Source: Allosphingosinicella sp.
GTDB taxonomy: Bacteria; Pseudomonadota; Alphaproteobacteria; Sphingomonadales; Sphingomonadaceae
Direction: 5' to 3'
DNA length: 7,768 bases
NCBI GenBank assembly: GCA_030146745.1
Contig: JASLBD010000197.1
Span: 1-7,768, forward strand
Numbering within the stretch: the first letter of the stretch is position 1; the number at the start of each line of letters is the position of its first letter. The notes under the pieces are model-generated. The model saw only the letters and a list, made by a program, of their open reading frames with translations. It was not told where the DNA came from and did no database searches. The position numbers and the translations under genes are program-made. Positions 2 through 7,768 of the stretch are shown here, piece by piece.

Positions 2-244
2 TGCGAGCGCGACAAGGCGGTGGACGATTTCTACAACAGCATCTTCCGCACCCTGCTCACCTTCATGATGGAGAGCCCTAACAACATCACCGCCGCCACC
101 CACCTGCTGTTCGTCGCGAAGAATCTGGAGCGGATCGGCGACCATGCGACCAACATCGCCGAGATGGTCTATTTCGCGGCCACCGGCGGCCATCTGGGCG
201 AACGTGAAAAGGGCGTCGACGCGACGGGGCCCGCCGAGCGGTGA
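2..244 (+). CDS. phoU: PhoU, phosphate-specific transport accessory protein (3' part only)
   Basis: Only the last 80 residues are visible; the frame is open to the left edge and the gene starts outside the window. PhoU is a cytoplasmic helical-bundle protein that links the PstSCAB phosphate transporter to the PhoR/PhoB two-component system and keeps the Pho response off when phosphate is plentiful. The visible part carries the family's second metal-binding signature, KNLERIGDHATNIAEMV, in which the E and D residues belong to the conserved ExxxD-type pattern, preceded by the usual ITAATHLLFVAK helix. The stop codon TGA overlaps the GTG start of the next gene within GTGA, so the two genes are almost certainly translationally coupled. 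The TTG/GTG codons near the left edge are internal and are not real starts. The assignment is firm. Confidence 0.95.
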   Translation, partial: CERDKAVDDFYNSIFRTLLTFMMESPNNITAATHLLFVAKNLERIGDHATNIAEMVYFAATGGHLGEREKGVDATGPAER

Positions 245-1077: not shown

Positions 1078-1122
1078 CCGCAATCCTTTTGTCATACGGG
1101 TGTAACGTTAGTCCCGTTTAAG
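1078..1122 (+). promoter_or_regulatory. Candidate Pho box and -10 for the CYTH-CHAD gene
   Basis: The half-sites TTGTCAT (1089-1095) and GTGTAAC (1100-1106) are separated by ACGG, which gives the 11-bp start-to-start spacing of PhoB sites (consensus CTGTCAT, four bases, CTGTCAC). A weaker 4/7 match (CCGCAAT, 1078-1084) sits one more 11-bp step upstream. Ten bases after the box is TTTAAG (1117-1122, 4 of 6 matches to TATAAT), the box-to-(-10) spacing of E. coli phoA as I recall it. Six more bases lead to the GTG at 1129. The AAGG at 1120-1123 could instead be read as a weak Shine-Dalgarno sequence five bases from the GTG. Confidence 0.7.
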
Positions 1123-2598: not shown

Positions 2599-2710
2599 AA
2601 TAAGAACCGCCACTCCGGGCTCGATTCGGCTCCAGGAACCTGTTGCCGCGAGATTGGGAAAGACCGGTGTTCATGGTGCCGGCGAGTCCGGCATGTCGGA
2701 AGCGGCCCGT
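2599..2710. other. Convergent intergenic spacer with a small hairpin
   Basis: This 112-base spacer separates the stops of the CYTH-CHAD gene (+) and the GspE-like gene (-). It holds one short perfect hairpin, TGCCGG-CGAGT-CCGGCA (2677-2693, 6-bp stem, 5-base loop), with no T-run on either side, so it is at best a weak terminator for one or both genes. Nothing else recognisable was seen; open frames that cross it look like shadows of the neighbours. Confidence 0.35.
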
Positions 2711-3469
2711 TCAGCTCTCGCCGCGCCGAGGCCTGAGCAGCGCGATCGCTTCTTCCGCGCCGATGAGGCCCTGGGCGACGAGGGCGCGGACCGCGGCGGC
2801 CAAGTTCGGCCACGTGCGGAAGACGTGGTTGGCGATCGCCGCTTCCTCGGCGCCGCAGACGAGCAGCCGGCCGACATGCGAGTCGATCGGCATCGTCTCG
2901 AAGATCCCGATCGGACCCGCGAAACCCTGGCCGTCGCAGGCATCGCATCCCCGCGCCCGATAGACGACGGCCCCCGGCTCCAGGCCGAGCGGCGCCGTGA
3001 CGCCATTGGCCGGCTGCACGGGCGTCCGGCAGCAGGGACACAGCCTTCGGGCCAGCCGCTGCGCGAGCACGAGACGAAGGACGCACGCGATCGAGAAGGG
3101 CTCGACCCCGAAGGCGGCGATCCGGCGGACGGCGGCGATCGAATCCCCGGCGCCGACCGTCGCCAGGACCAGCCGCCCCCGGGCCGTCTCGAGCGCCGAA
3201 GCGGCGCTTTCCGCGCTGCCGATGTCGCCGACGGCGAGCGCGTCCGGCCTTGCCCTCAGAAGGCCCCTGAGCGTCGTCGCTCTCCCCGAGCCCCGCGGCC
3301 CGGCCACGAGGATGAGGCCGCCGGCCTGGCCGAGCGCGCCGACGAGCGCGGAGCGTGCCGTGGGGGTCATTCCGGCGAAGAAGGGCGGGAGCCCTGCCGG
3401 GCCGCGCATGCCCCCGCCGGCAGGAGCGGAGCGCTCGCGGGTTCCGGGACCGTGGGCTTCGAGGCGCAT
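2711..3469 (-). CDS. Degenerate GspE/PilB-like (type II secretion ATPase family) protein
   Basis: 252 residues that align in order with the C-terminal half of GspE/PilB ATPases, which normally run to about 500 or more. Residues 26-50 resemble the linker before the P-loop; 51-66 (GLILVAGPRGSGRATT) is the Walker A region with R63 in place of the catalytic lysine; 75-90 matches the Walker B strand but reads VGDIGSAES instead of VGEIRDxET; TVGAGDS (104-110) replaces the histidine box TLHTNDA. Between Walker A and B about 60 residues normally holding the Asp box and catalytic glutamate are missing. The GVEPF, LAQRLARRLCP and GIFETM motifs and the zinc-type cysteines C144/C147 and C175/C178 remain. 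It therefore probably cannot hydrolyse ATP normally; a structural, regulatory or nucleotide-sensing role is inference. The frame is intact and has its own Pho-type promoter, so it is not an obvious pseudogene. The ATG at 3469 fits the promoter geometry; M21 (3409) is a less likely alternative start. No other secretion genes lie in the window. Confidence 0.85.
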   Translation of the reverse strand: MRLEAHGPGTRERSAPAGGGMRGPAGLPPFFAGMTPTARSALVGALGQAGGLILVAGPRGSGRATTLRGLLRARPDALAVGDIGSAESAASALETARGRLVLATVGAGDSIAAVRRIAAFGVEPFSIACVLRLVLAQRLARRLCPCCRTPVQPANGVTAPLGLEPGAVVYRARGCDACDGQGFAGPIGIFETMPIDSHVGRLLVCGAEEAAIANHVFRTWPNLAAAVRALVAQGLIGAEEAIALLRPRRGES

Positions 3470-3475
3470 GGCCGA

Positions 3476-3520
3476 TTCCTACACTTCCAACATGACAGGG
3501 TCGTGGAAGTTTTGTGACAG
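3476..3520 (-). promoter_or_regulatory. Three-half-site Pho box and -10 for the GspE-like gene
   Basis: Read on the - strand, half-sites CTGTCAC (3520-3514), CTTCCAC (3509-3503, 5/7 match) and CTGTCAT (3498-3492) occur at exact 11-bp steps, with four-base spacers AAAA and GACC. The outer two match the PhoB half-site consensus 7/7 when its last base may be T or C. Ten bases on is TAGGAA (3481-3476), a weak -10 (3 of 6 matches), then six bases to the ATG at 3469. The AGGA inside this hexamer could instead be a Shine-Dalgarno sequence seven bases before the ATG. Three phased sites would allow more than one PhoB dimer to bind. Confidence 0.78.
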
Positions 3521-3523
3521 GCG

Positions 3524-3623
3524 GGCCGTCATTCCGGCGAAAGCCGGAATCCATTGAACGGCCCGGTGCCGCGATTTCGAACGGCCGTGTTGATGGATCC
3601 CGGCCTTCGCCGGGATGACGGCC
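3524..3623. repeat. Dispersed palindromic repeat, copy 2 (hairpin after the receptor gene)
   Basis: Two 31-base arms, 3524-3554 and 3593-3623, are reverse complements with three mismatches, around a 38-base spacer. Each arm also holds a shorter internal palindrome (CCGGCGAAAGCCGG and CCCGGCCTTCGCCGGG). The left arm shares CCGGCGAAAGCCGGAATCCA with copy 1 in the same orientation. The element begins eight bases past the receptor stop codon and ends just upstream of the GspE-like Pho box, so it probably acts as a transcription end or 3' mRNA-protecting hairpin for the receptor operon and separates the two - strand transcription units. There is no clear T-run. Confidence 0.88.
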
Positions 3624-3630
3624 ACCTCCA

Positions 3631-6360
3631 TCAAAACGTCATGCTCAGCCCGACGCTGAGGGTTCGGCCGACCTTGTAGCTGTTGATGTCGATGCGGTTG
3701 TCCTCGAACTCCTGATATTCCTCGTAATCCTGGCCGAGCAGGTTACGCGCCTCGAGCTTGATCTCCGCATCCTGGCCGAGGAAACGGATCGCCTCGCGGG
3801 CGACGAAGTCGAGCCGGAGGCCGGGCTTCTCGACGATGTCGGGCTGGCGGGCGCTGCCCTGGATCGGGCCGCGTTCGGTGACCCGCTCGCTGGCATAGGT
3901 GAGAAGGAAGGTCGCCTGCGACAGCCGGTCGGTTCTTTCGATGCCGAACTGGATGTTGGCGAGATGGTCCGACTGGCCGGTCAGGGGGGCGCCGTCCTGG
4001 AACAGCAGGTTCGCCGCCACCGGCTGCAGGTCGGGGCCGATGACGAGGGTGTCGTCCGATTTCACCTTCGACTGCGTGTAGGTGTAATTGGCGATCAGCA
4101 GGAGCCGCCGGTCGGCGAAGCTCTCGCCGAGCCCGGACAAAGGCAAATAGGTCTGAAGCTCCGCCTCGGCTCCGTAGAGCGTCGCTTGCGGAGCGTTGGC
4201 GAAGCCGGTGCGAAGCTGGCCGCCGCCGGCGAAGAAGGCGGCCGATTCGATCGGATTGTCGATCTTCTTGTAGAAGCCGGCGAGGCTGAACCGCTCGCCG
4301 CGCCGGAAATAATATTCGTAGCGCGCTTCGGCGTTGGTCAGCTGGCTGTCGGTCAGGAACGGGTTGCCGGTGAACTCCCGGTCGGATTCGAAATCCTGGT
4401 AGATTTGCGGGGCCAGCTCGCGGAACTGGGGACGGGCGATGGTCTTCGAGGCGTGCAGGCGAACCTGCATGTTGTCGGCGAAGTTCCAGGTCACGGTCGC
4501 CGCCGGCAGCCAGTAATCGTTGGCGATCCGGGTCGCGGCGGCGCCCGCGGCGCTGGTCAGGACGGTCTCGACCGCATCCTCGTAGCGGATCCCGAACTGA
4601 GCTCTCAGCGCCGGGCCCGGAAGCTCGATCTCGGCCTGGGCGTAGCCGGCGTGGATTCGAAGCCCCGCCTCGTAAGCCGCCGCGCCTTCCGCGCCTGAGA
4701 TGTCGCGAAGCTGGATGTTGAAATTGTAGATGTTGAAGTCGGAGAGCAGATAGTCCGGCCGCTCCTGAGCGACCGCGATCGGAAGGGCGCCCTCCGGCCG
4801 GAAATATTGGAACTGGAAGCGCGAGGAATCGCGCTCGCTCTTCGTATAGGCGTAGCCGGCCGAGAGGGTCGTCGGCATCGCGCCGTTGAGCCGGTAGGCG
4901 AAATCGATGCCGCCGGCATAGACGTCCTCGCTGAGGTCGTTGAAGGCGATGGTCGCCGACTGGCCGCCGGAGCTCAGGTTGTTCACATAATCGTCGACGT
5001 CGCTGAGGCTTTTGGTCGCCGGGTCGCCGTCGCCCAGATAGGTATAGCTGATGTCCCGCTCGTAAGGGGATTCGCGCTGGGAATTGGCATAGGTGCCGCG
5101 AAGGTCGACGCTGAGGTCGGCGAATTTGAACTCGCCGACGAACTGGGTGTCGATCAGCTGCCGCTCGAACCAGTAGGTGTTCTGCTCGATGATCGAGGGC
5201 GGAAGGTTCGGGTCCTGATCCTGGACGCTCCGGTTGAAGCCGGCGGCGAGGCGGCCCTGCTTCAGCGTGTCGCGGATGAAGAGGTTGGTCCAGCGCAGCT
5301 TGTGGCGGCCGATCTCGGCGCCGACACCGAGCATGGCGTTGACGAGGATCCGGTTGTCGGTGGTGACCCGCCGGAAGCTCGACTGAGGGGTGCCGGCGAG
5401 CTCGGGATCGTTCGAGATCTGCTGGATCGCGTCGCGCGTTCGCCAGCTGTTGCTGTAGCCGACGGCGCCGAGAAGCCCGATCCTCGCCCCGAGCAGGTCG
5501 AAGGCGGTGCCGGCGCTGATGTTGCCGCCCAGATTGGGGGCGAGGTTGTTGACGCGCTGGAGCAGGGTGGTCGGTGCGTTGACCAGGGCCGCCGCGAAGT
5601 CGCGGCGCTGGGCGGCCGTCGTGTCGCCGTTGAAGGCACCGCCGGCGACGGCGGCGCGCAGGCCGGCCGGAATGTCGCGGGTGCCGTCGTCGAAGCCGAG
5701 CGGATCGAGGTCGCTGCCGAAATAGGAATAGCCGAAATGGCCGGTGGTCTCGCTGTCGACCTCGGCCGAGGCGCCGACGGTCAGAAAGGTTTCGTCCGGG
5801 ATCGAGGTCGTGGTGAGGTTGATGACCCCGCCGCCGAACTCGCCCGGGTAATTGACCGAATAGCTCTTCTGAACGACCGAGCTGGCGATGAGCCCGGTCG
5901 GGAAGATGTCGAGCGGAACGACCCGGCGCAGCGGCTCCGGGCTCGGCAGAGGCGAGCCGTTGAGAAGGGCCAGCGAATAGCGGTCGCCCAGGCCTCGAAC
6001 GTAGACGAAGCCGCTGCCGACCACCGAAAGCCCCGTGACCCTCTGCAGCGCGCCGGCGATGTCGCCTTCACCGGTTCGGGCGATGTCCTCGCTCGACAGG
6101 ACCGACACGACCGACGGCGTATTGCGAAGGACGTTGGGGATGTTGCGGCCGGTGACGACGATGTCCCCGGTCTCCTCGGGCTGGGCGCCCGGCGCCGAGA
6201 CTTCGATCGCCTCCTCCGGACTCTCCGCCGGAGTTTCGGCCTCGATCGGGCCCGCCTCCGGCGCGTCCACGACCGCCGGCGCGTCCTGCGCGAAGGCGGC
6301 GGTTGCCGTGAGCGCGGTGGACAGGAGGAGCAGGCTCCCCAAGCGGATGGGTTTCAACAT
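3631..6360 (-). CDS. TonB-dependent outer-membrane receptor
   Basis: A 909-residue TonB-dependent receptor. Residues 1-24 form a signal peptide (basic MLKPIR, hydrophobic core, cleavage expected after AFA). Residues 25-64 are a proline-rich, strongly acidic linker, followed by the TonB box GDIVVTG at about 65-71. The plug domain covers about 75-185, with typical DIARTGEGDIAGALQRVTG, YVRGLGDRYSLALLNG and GEFGGGVINL motifs. The rest is a beta-barrel with alternating aromatic strands, a SKTIARPQFRELAP segment and an NPFLTDSQLTNAEARYEYYF segment common in large receptors, and ends in the outer-membrane C-terminal phenylalanine (GLSMTF). There is no N-terminal STN signalling domain, so it is a transporter rather than a FecA-type transducer. 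A GGGGG stretch at 6371-6375 lies ten bases before the ATG. It follows the beta-helix gene by 78 bases, likely one operon. The substrate is unknown; phosphate-containing compounds are a guess from the neighbouring Pho genes. Confidence 0.95.
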   Translation of the reverse strand: MLKPIRLGSLLLLSTALTATAAFAQDAPAVVDAPEAGPIEAETPAESPEEAIEVSAPGAQPEETGDIVVTGRNIPNVLRNTPSVVSVLSSEDIARTGEGDIAGALQRVTGLSVVGSGFVYVRGLGDRYSLALLNGSPLPSPEPLRRVVPLDIFPTGLIASSVVQKSYSVNYPGEFGGGVINLTTTSIPDETFLTVGASAEVDSETTGHFGYSYFGSDLDPLGFDDGTRDIPAGLRAAVAGGAFNGDTTAAQRRDFAAALVNAPTTLLQRVNNLAPNLGGNISAGTAFDLLGARIGLLGAVGYSNSWRTRDAIQQISNDPELAGTPQSSFRRVTTDNRILVNAMLGVGAEIGRHKLRWTNLFIRDTLKQGRLAAGFNRSVQDQDPNLPPSIIEQNTYWFERQLIDTQFVGEFKFADLSVDLRGTYANSQRESPYERDISYTYLGDGDPATKSLSDVDDYVNNLSSGGQSATIAFNDLSEDVYAGGIDFAYRLNGAMPTTLSAGYAYTKSERDSSRFQFQYFRPEGALPIAVAQERPDYLLSDFNIYNFNIQLRDISGAEGAAAYEAGLRIHAGYAQAEIELPGPALRAQFGIRYEDAVETVLTSAAGAAATRIANDYWLPAATVTWNFADNMQVRLHASKTIARPQFRELAPQIYQDFESDREFTGNPFLTDSQLTNAEARYEYYFRRGERFSLAGFYKKIDNPIESAAFFAGGGQLRTGFANAPQATLYGAEAELQTYLPLSGLGESFADRRLLLIANYTYTQSKVKSDDTLVIGPDLQPVAANLLFQDGAPLTGQSDHLANIQFGIERTDRLSQATFLLTYASERVTERGPIQGSARQPDIVEKPGLRLDFVAREAIRFLGQDAEIKLEARNLLGQDYEEYQEFEDNRIDINSYKVGRTLSVGLSMTF

Positions 6361-6438: not shown

Positions 6439-7768
6439 TCAGGACGTGGGAATGGCCGTGCAACTGCCGCTGGCGGCGCCGAAGTTCACGTAGCCGGCGT
6501 TGCAGGTCCAGCCGGCGAACCAGGTGTCCGAAGCGTTGCGGACGGCGCCGATGTAGGTGACCGCCTCGAGACGGTTCGGAGCGGAGCTGTTGGCCGTCGC
6601 GAACTGGTCGGCGTTGAACGGAGTCGGATCCGTCGCCGCCACGGCGTTTTCATTCGCCCCGTTGATGAAGACGTTCGCCAGGGTCGACGTGAAGGCCGAA
6701 TTGTTGCCGTTCGTGCCCGAGCCGAAGATCGCCTGGATTTCCGCCACGGTGACGTTGCCGTCGTCGCGGAACGCCGTCGGGCAGGCCAGCACCACCGACC
6801 GGAAGATCGGCGGCCCGACGTCCTGAAGCGCCGCGTTGGTGGCCCGCATGGTGGAGCCGCCGGTCGCGTCGATGTCCAGACAGGCCTGGGTGCCGACGAC
6901 GACGCTGTTGAGGATGGCGTAATCGGTGCCGCCGCGAAGCAGGATGGTGTTCCCGCCCTGAGCCGTGCCGCGCTGGACGAAGGTCGCGTTGGAAAGCCGC
7001 GTATACTGGCGCGGAAGAGCGTCCTCGTTGCCGTTCGAATCGGCCTCGATCATCGAGTCGCCGTTCTGGGCGTCGCGCTGTACTCCGATCAGGAACTGGA
7101 TCGTGCCGCGATAGCCGATGTCCGTGTCGAGCGCGTCGTCGTCGGCGCCGGTGATCACGAGATGCTTGGCATTCACCCGGCCGCCGAAAATCTCGATGCC
7201 GTCGTCCGAGCTGTTGTGGATCTGGATATGGTCGATCGTCGTGTTGCTTCCGACGCCGCCCATGGTGAGGCCCTGAAGCTCGTTGCCCGGAGCGATGGCG
7301 AAACCGGAATAGCGGATCTGGACGTAGCGCATCGTCCCCGAATTGTCGGTCGCGACATTGCCGCCGTAGAAGGAGCCCGTGGTGCCCTCGATCACCTGCT
7401 GGCAGGCGGCCGAACCGCCCGGAACGGCGGTGTTGCAGTCGCTGATCGGGGCCCGGCCGAGCAGGATGACCCCGCCCCACAGGCCCTGGGTCGAATCGGT
7501 CGCGGTGCCCTCGACATTGGCCCGGGCCGTGAAGATGATCGGCTGGGTGGCGTTTCCGACGGCGTTGATCCGCGAGCCGCGGTTGATCACCAGATAGTCG
7601 TTGCCGGACGATCCGAAGATGGTGACTCCCGCCTGGATGGTCAGGGTCACCGCGTCGCCGCCGGCGAGAGCGCCGTCGCCGCCGACGTCGGTGCCGACAT
7701 TGACCGGCCCGGCGAGCGAGTAGACGACGCCCGGAAGCTTCTGGATGGTGTAATCGTCGCTGATCCGG
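6439..7768 (-). CDS. Secreted right-handed beta-helix-like protein (5' end outside the window)
   Basis: 442 residues are visible and the frame is open through the right edge: residues reading RISDDYTIQKLPGVVYSLAG lie upstream of the GTG at 7650, so that GTG is internal. The visible part starts with a VNVGTD...VTLTIQAGVTIFG pattern typical of the cap of this family, then short repeats rich in N, G, S, T and I with the solenoid look of a right-handed parallel beta-helix (YVQIRYSGFAI, IDHIQIHNSSDDGIEIFGG, AKHLVITGADDDALDTDIGYRG). The acidic DDGIE and DDDALDTD turns could bind calcium. There are six cysteines (SDC, AAC, QAC, LAC, WTC, GSC), an even number that suits a disulfide-bonded exported protein; the signal sequence must lie outside the window. 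From memory, such proteins are often encoded beside TonB-dependent receptors, as here, and may bind substrate at the surface. No catalytic site was recognised, and the function is unknown. Confidence 0.85.
   Translation of the reverse strand, partial: RISDDYTIQKLPGVVYSLAGPVNVGTDVGGDGALAGGDAVTLTIQAGVTIFGSSGNDYLVINRGSRINAVGNATQPIIFTARANVEGTATDSTQGLWGGVILLGRAPISDCNTAVPGGSAACQQVIEGTTGSFYGGNVATDNSGTMRYVQIRYSGFAIAPGNELQGLTMGGVGSNTTIDHIQIHNSSDDGIEIFGGRVNAKHLVITGADDDALDTDIGYRGTIQFLIGVQRDAQNGDSMIEADSNGNEDALPRQYTRLSNATFVQRGTAQGGNTILLRGGTDYAILNSVVVGTQACLDIDATGGSTMRATNAALQDVGPPIFRSVVLACPTAFRDDGNVTVAEIQAIFGSGTNGNNSAFTSTLANVFINGANENAVAATDPTPFNADQFATANSSAPNRLEAVTYIGAVRNASDTWFAGWTCNAGYVNFGAASGSCTAIPTS

Follow-up and report, generated by a model that had tools for sequence, protein, structure and literature searches.

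A short, degenerate GspE beside phoU and phoB in Allosphingosinicella: a candidate PhoB-controlled pseudo-ATPase

In this report, we examine a short relative of the type II secretion ATPase GspE, encoded in a 7,768-nucleotide stretch of Allosphingosinicella sp. DNA (assembly GCA_030146745.1, contig JASLBD010000197.1; hereafter the window), where an intact minus-strand frame of 252 amino acids (aa) occupies positions 2711-3469. Sequence comparison and structure prediction suggest that this short GspE, shrunk by half relative to the motor protein, is the C-terminal domain of an ATPase that once belonged to an elpS-linked type II secretion system (T2SS), kept beside phoU, phoB and a CYTH/CHAD gene. 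We think it fairly likely that it is a maintained, PhoB-controlled, non-hydrolysing pseudo-ATPase, and its role is probably that of a binding or regulatory protein and no longer that of a motor.

The short GspE matches Pfam PF00437 (T2SSE) at 121.8 bits (E 3.4e-35, gathering cut-off 24.9), which places it in the superfamily, and its best NCBIfam model is TIGR02533 (GspE), at 139.4 bits, far under the equivalog cut-off of 630.25. Alignment with full-length GspEs puts its start shortly before the C-terminal ATPase domain, with the N1 and N2 domains absent. Arginine replaces the lysine of the Walker A motif GxxxxGK[ST], giving GPRGSGRATT (residues 57-67, GPRGSGRATTL, at 3269-3301 on the minus strand; R63 at 3281-3283). 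Directly after it, 45 residues present in canonical GspEs, including TVEDPVEY and QVN, are deleted, joining the Walker A helix directly to the Walker B strand and removing the Asp box with its magnesium-holding glutamate. Both His-box histidines, present in 62/62 canonical sequences, are replaced (R99 and G106), and the zinc tetracysteine (C144-x2-C147 ... C175-x2-C178; 2936-3040, minus strand), GVEPF and LAQRLARRLCP are all present. An earlier note, made from the sequence, had described the intact frame, the lysine-to-arginine change, the Asp-box deletion, the altered His box, the surviving motifs and the missing N-terminal domains, all of which are borne out; its claim that Walker B is altered holds for the canonical glutamate, but an acid survives there as D82 (GDI), with D or E in 73 of the 84 relatives aligned below. 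A structure prediction, which that note had proposed, returned a confident fold, suggesting that the fold of the C-terminal domain is kept. G+C content at third codon positions (GC3) is 0.881, as in three neighbouring genes (0.877-0.885), and at second positions (GC2) 0.617, well above those neighbours (0.464-0.465). Two opposite-strand frames, 2654-3517 and 2997-3557, were rejected as genes, homologues and GC3 favouring the minus frame (homologues of those two frames were not searched).

Moreover, the short form has many relatives. A protein search with it gave 249 matches at E <= 0.001, and among the best 120, where P0001 is the window itself, P0002-P0100 (E 6.1e-124 to 8.2e-40) are 211-269 aa long in 98 of 99 cases, P0098 having 358 aa. 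The earlier note had seen a ground for doubt in orthologues that are rare and decaying; as to rarity, that doubt falls away. All of P0002-P0100 bear the source names of secretion or pilus ATPases, which are misleading. The alignment comprises 84 of P0001-P0100; the other 16 were left out, for the most part because their N-terminus was shorter, because they were odd or because they nearly duplicated another sequence. Within it, R63 is kept in 79/84 (K in 2), G57 in 82, T66 in 81 and R99 in 71, and the four zinc cysteines in 84, 84, 83 and 84. Mean pairwise identity rises from 0.298 in the tail (8-24; 1799 of 3486 pairs comparable) through 0.516 in residues 28-50, 0.525 at the junction (68-82), 0.568 in helix 111-136, 0.583 in the His-box region, 0.635 in the C-terminal helices and 0.652 in the zinc module to a peak of 0.80 in the P-loop strand (51-67), which makes the arginine P-loop the best-preserved stretch of the family. 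No listed match exceeded 49% identity in 397 family, 26 genus and 297 relative genomes (overlapping sets), the two larger searches scoring at most six and at most nine candidates per genome. A profile search with 18 orphan GspEs, described next, yielded in the best 120 of its 1710 matches chiefly canonical GspEs and short forms that were already known.

Orphan GspEs also occur in at least six comparison genomes, taken to be Sphingomonadaceae from the source names of homologues; the number is a lower bound, as orphans were chosen from listed matches with short open frames. They are L046 in G025 (408 aa, P-loop GPSGSGC), L060 in G661 (389 aa, GPDVSDR), L051 in G330 (266 aa, GHGGSGRSTT, also without the Asp box), L126/L139 in G779 (at most 441 aa, GTAGSGLST), L127/L140 in G786 (407 aa, GPSGSGKTAT) and L129/L141 in G783 (388 aa, P-loop lost), with no stop inside the match of any of them. 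L140 is the window's own locus, with phoU 85%, phoB 70% and CYTH/CHAD 62% identical, followed by an opposite-strand orphan and a TonB-dependent receptor gene. In L141, phoU is 81% identical, no phoB stands between it and CYTH/CHAD, and orphan and receptor follow as in L140. The earlier note had wondered whether close relatives carry a full-length, active GspE at this position; the two readable genes found there are longer and degenerate, lacking the Walker B glutamate or the P-loop as well as the His-box histidines, with GSGKT intact in L140. All seven loci, window included, have a TonB receptor gene on the orphan's strand, upstream of the orphan. The gap is 118-214 bp in the window, L060, L140 and L141, depends on the chosen start in L139, and widens to about 870-880 bp in L051 and L046, where a further gene intervenes. 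This plus-strand gene (L046:10550-11317, matching the L051 stretch between 9790 and 10658) reads by eye like a 2-oxoglutarate-Fe(II) oxygenase. Other candidates were set aside: a split gspE frame in a T2SS-like operon of G628 (L053:9117-10600), a frameshift artefact that the window does not resemble; short frames in G511 and G752, which lie at contig ends; and one in G404, which has canonical motifs and belongs to a different T2SS set.

The Pho control that the earlier note proposed gains support at the sequence level from three 7-mers at an 11-bp period, CTGTCAC-AAAA-CTTCCAC-GACC-CTGTCAT, on the minus strand (3492-3520) and 22 bp upstream of the start ATG. Against what we take to be the Pho-box consensus, the outer repeats have 0 mismatches and the middle repeat two. 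Sites with at most three mismatches number 3 in the window versus 0.80 expected, a count reached by 10/200 shuffles, and the other two have three mismatches each. The boxes of L140 and L141 have 2 and 1 mismatches at the same 22-bp distance, that of L060 has 1, and those of L046 and, read from its likely start, L139 have 3 each; among 4000 random 250-bp windows, sites with at most 1, 2 and 3 mismatches occur in 0.9%, 1.7% and 7.9%, respectively. The CYTH/CHAD gene may be PhoB-controlled too, because a repeat pair with 1 mismatch precedes its counterpart in L140 (L140:7277-7294). A weak Pho-box-like pair with 3 mismatches lies before the window's own CYTH/CHAD gene (1089-1106, plus strand).

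The neighbourhood points to a T2SS origin. The order elpS, TonB receptor, gspC, gspD, gspE, gspF was seen in 15/40 fetched loci, which is not a frequency because loci were chosen by GspE or ElpS match, and the Caulobacter genes cc0170 and cc0171 have the same neighbourhood with a T2SS, according to the available part of PMC2996285. In the window, gspC and gspD are missing between receptor and gspE, and the CYTH/CHAD gene stands where gspF would. The elpS-TonB receptor pair is separable from the T2SS, because eight loci (L095, L097, L102, L105, L106, L107, L111 and L112) show the pair with no gspC-G match in the stretch read. In an IQ-TREE phylogeny of 87 sequences (L127 entered twice) and 338 columns, all orphans except L060, 17 in number, group in a single clade (99%) within the radiation of these GspEs, with poor backbone support (11-30%) near its attachment and possible long-branch attraction. 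L060 seems to have degenerated separately, because it groups with three canonical genes, including L036 from its own genome (81-96%). The short form appears at three places in the orphan clade, namely the window clade (98%), P0099/P0100 (100%) and L051, with longer forms between them (supports 39-95%). Comparing the 17 orphans with 62 canonical GspEs, the Walker lysine is kept in 3/17 (arginine in 11/17) versus 62/62. The orphans retain the Walker B glutamate in 7/17, the first His-box histidine in 1/17 and the second in 0/17; zinc cysteines are present in 16-17/17, and E191 and R246 in 17/17.

A possible but tentative alternative is that the short GspE tunes or poisons the T2SS hexamer, its C-terminal domain docking in phosphate starvation on N2 of a full-length GspE, or on GspF, and blocking or reshaping the motor. 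This would fit PilB, whose chains meet mainly through N2 of one and the C-terminal domain of the next (available sections of PMC5424180), the dominant-negative effect of zinc-site loss in EpsE (PMC5061722, in the part available) and the Caulobacter T2SS, which the accessible portion of PMC11208175 assigns to the PhoB regulon. GspD exceeds the TIGR02517 cut-off in 4/6 orphan genomes (G783, G025, G330 and G661), and a GspE spanning the whole Pfam profile is found in G025, G330 and G661, G783 having one in two pieces in different frames. Against such docking, the short GspE lacks the GspL-binding N1 domain, and the drafts G779 and G786 carry an orphan, no GspD above the cut-off (best 141 and 161 bits) and no other profile-spanning GspE, although absence of a T2SS is not proved because genome completeness is not given. 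In these two drafts, T2SSF matches come as paired short frames, which appear to be of the kind seen in Tad loci, and as a single contig-edge fragment in G786, with no full GspF pair of T2SS size. We favour ligand binding over a hexamer cap because the arginine P-loop is best kept and two genomes are apparently without a T2SS. ATP hydrolysis is unlikely because the Asp-box glutamate and the His-box histidine, which in the PilB structures hold magnesium and contact the gamma-phosphate (available sections of PMC5424180), are lost and only one half of the N2-C-terminal contact is kept. The P-loop glycines and the acid at the Walker B site are what speaks for an ATPase using R63 in place of the Walker lysine, an idea that we consider barely credible.

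It is improbable, moreover, that the short GspE is a slowly decaying, functionless relic of a T2SS operon that has been lost. A relic would suit the varied ways in which catalytic motifs have gone, lengths that fall from 388-441 to about 230 aa, the long branches and the failure to find gspC, gspD or gspF at the orphan spot; these points are met by zinc cysteines in 83-84/84 and R63 in 79/84 at identities down to 45%, the confident predicted fold, Pho boxes with an identical 22-bp distance across three orthologous loci and the stop-free matches of the six genome orphans. The same observations counter a recent pseudogene. Several points nevertheless weigh against a maintained, PhoB-controlled ligand-binding protein. 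The P-loop is also kept in canonical GspEs, and its conservation may be structural. Not every orphan can have a ligand role, because L129/L141 and L060 have a destroyed P-loop and L046 and L126/L139 lack the basic residue. The branches of the longer orphans, about 0.7-1.1 substitutions per site versus mostly 0.02-0.3 for canonical GspEs, indicate fast evolution. Furthermore, the Pho boxes of the window, L140 and L141 are not independent because the loci are orthologous, and no Pho box precedes the L051 orphan, where one with 1 mismatch precedes elpS.

If the short GspE is nonetheless a maintained, non-hydrolysing binding protein, PhoB would induce it when phosphate runs short. Lacking the magnesium-holding Asp box and carrying arginines at residues 63 and 99, it may hold a phosphate-bearing ligand in its P-loop without hydrolysis, and its zinc and C-terminal part would bind a partner protein; it would thereby serve as an adaptor or sensor during starvation. 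The nucleotide- or phosphate-linked factor that the earlier note suggested is conceivable, since no block of the family is better conserved than the arginine P-loop. More speculative, and in our view rather doubtful, is a secretion motor turned signalling protein: during phosphate starvation its arginine P-loop, with neither magnesium nor hydrolysis involved, would bind phosphate, nucleotide, ppGpp or polyphosphate, and its zinc module would relay that state to a phosphate-uptake partner, GspE-derived pseudo-ATPases beside TonB receptor genes having arisen at least twice.

Around the short GspE, the window holds the 3' part of phoU (2-244, plus strand; Pfam and NCBIfam profile matches), phoB (241-939, plus; TIGR02154, 317.9 bits versus a cut-off of 296.2) and the CYTH/CHAD gene (1057-2598, plus; frame limits, the true start possibly lying further in), which is convergent with the short GspE gene. 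On the minus strand lie the TonB-dependent receptor gene (3631-6360; profile match), the partner of elpS in relatives, and a gene for an ElpS-like protein (6439-7767), whose 5' end falls outside the window; its label follows from gene order and from relatives, in which visual inspection suggested a lipoprotein-type start. An inverted repeat with 31-nt arms (3524-3623) separates the receptor and short GspE genes. Palindromes resembling repetitive extragenic palindromes lie there and at 972-1044, both stretches containing inverted repeats, and the 25-mer CATTCCGGCGAAAGCCGGAATCCAT occurs 3 times in the window with at most 3 mismatches (mean 0.00 in 200 shuffles). The receptors of L140 and L141 belong to a different subfamily from the window's. 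Past the receptor, both loci have a second phoB-like gene; a further PhoB-like regulator of this sort (60-64% to the PhoB of the window) stands beside elpS-TonB receptor or TonB receptor-orphan GspE units in L093, L099, L139, L140 and L141. L140 also has a diverged second PhoU, and the CYTH/CHAD gene of L141 is split into two frames (L141:5800-7228).

Compared with known systems, the short GspE resembles the GspE of the T2SS in its C-terminal domain fold, zinc tetracysteine, highest-scoring NCBIfam model and gene order (elpS, TonB receptor, gspC-D where present, gspE), and differs in scoring 490 bits below the equivalog cut-off, in having no gspC, gspD or gspF beside it, and in the lost N1 and N2 domains, Asp box, Walker lysine and His-box histidines. 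The same losses separate it from PilB/PilF, the type IV pilus assembly ATPase, and none of the other five window genes is a pilus gene. Like the Caulobacter elpS-TonB receptor-T2SS locus (cc0170, cc0171), the window sets an ElpS-like and a TonB receptor gene beside a gspE-derived gene with a phosphate link; unlike it, as far as the available part of PMC2996285 describes that locus, the T2SS gene set does not follow, and one degenerate gspE is kept beside phoB. A narrowly worded search of the open-access literature found nothing on an orphan, inactive or PhoB-linked GspE or on type II secretion in Allosphingosinicella, nor any pseudo-enzyme that descends from type II secretion or type IV pilus motors and has become a fixed member of a nutrient-stress regulon. 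If our reading is right, the short GspE would be a small protein with which to study the roles that the zinc module and C-terminal domain of GspE play besides hydrolysis, and would point to a link between phosphate starvation, TonB receptors and genes once used for secretion.
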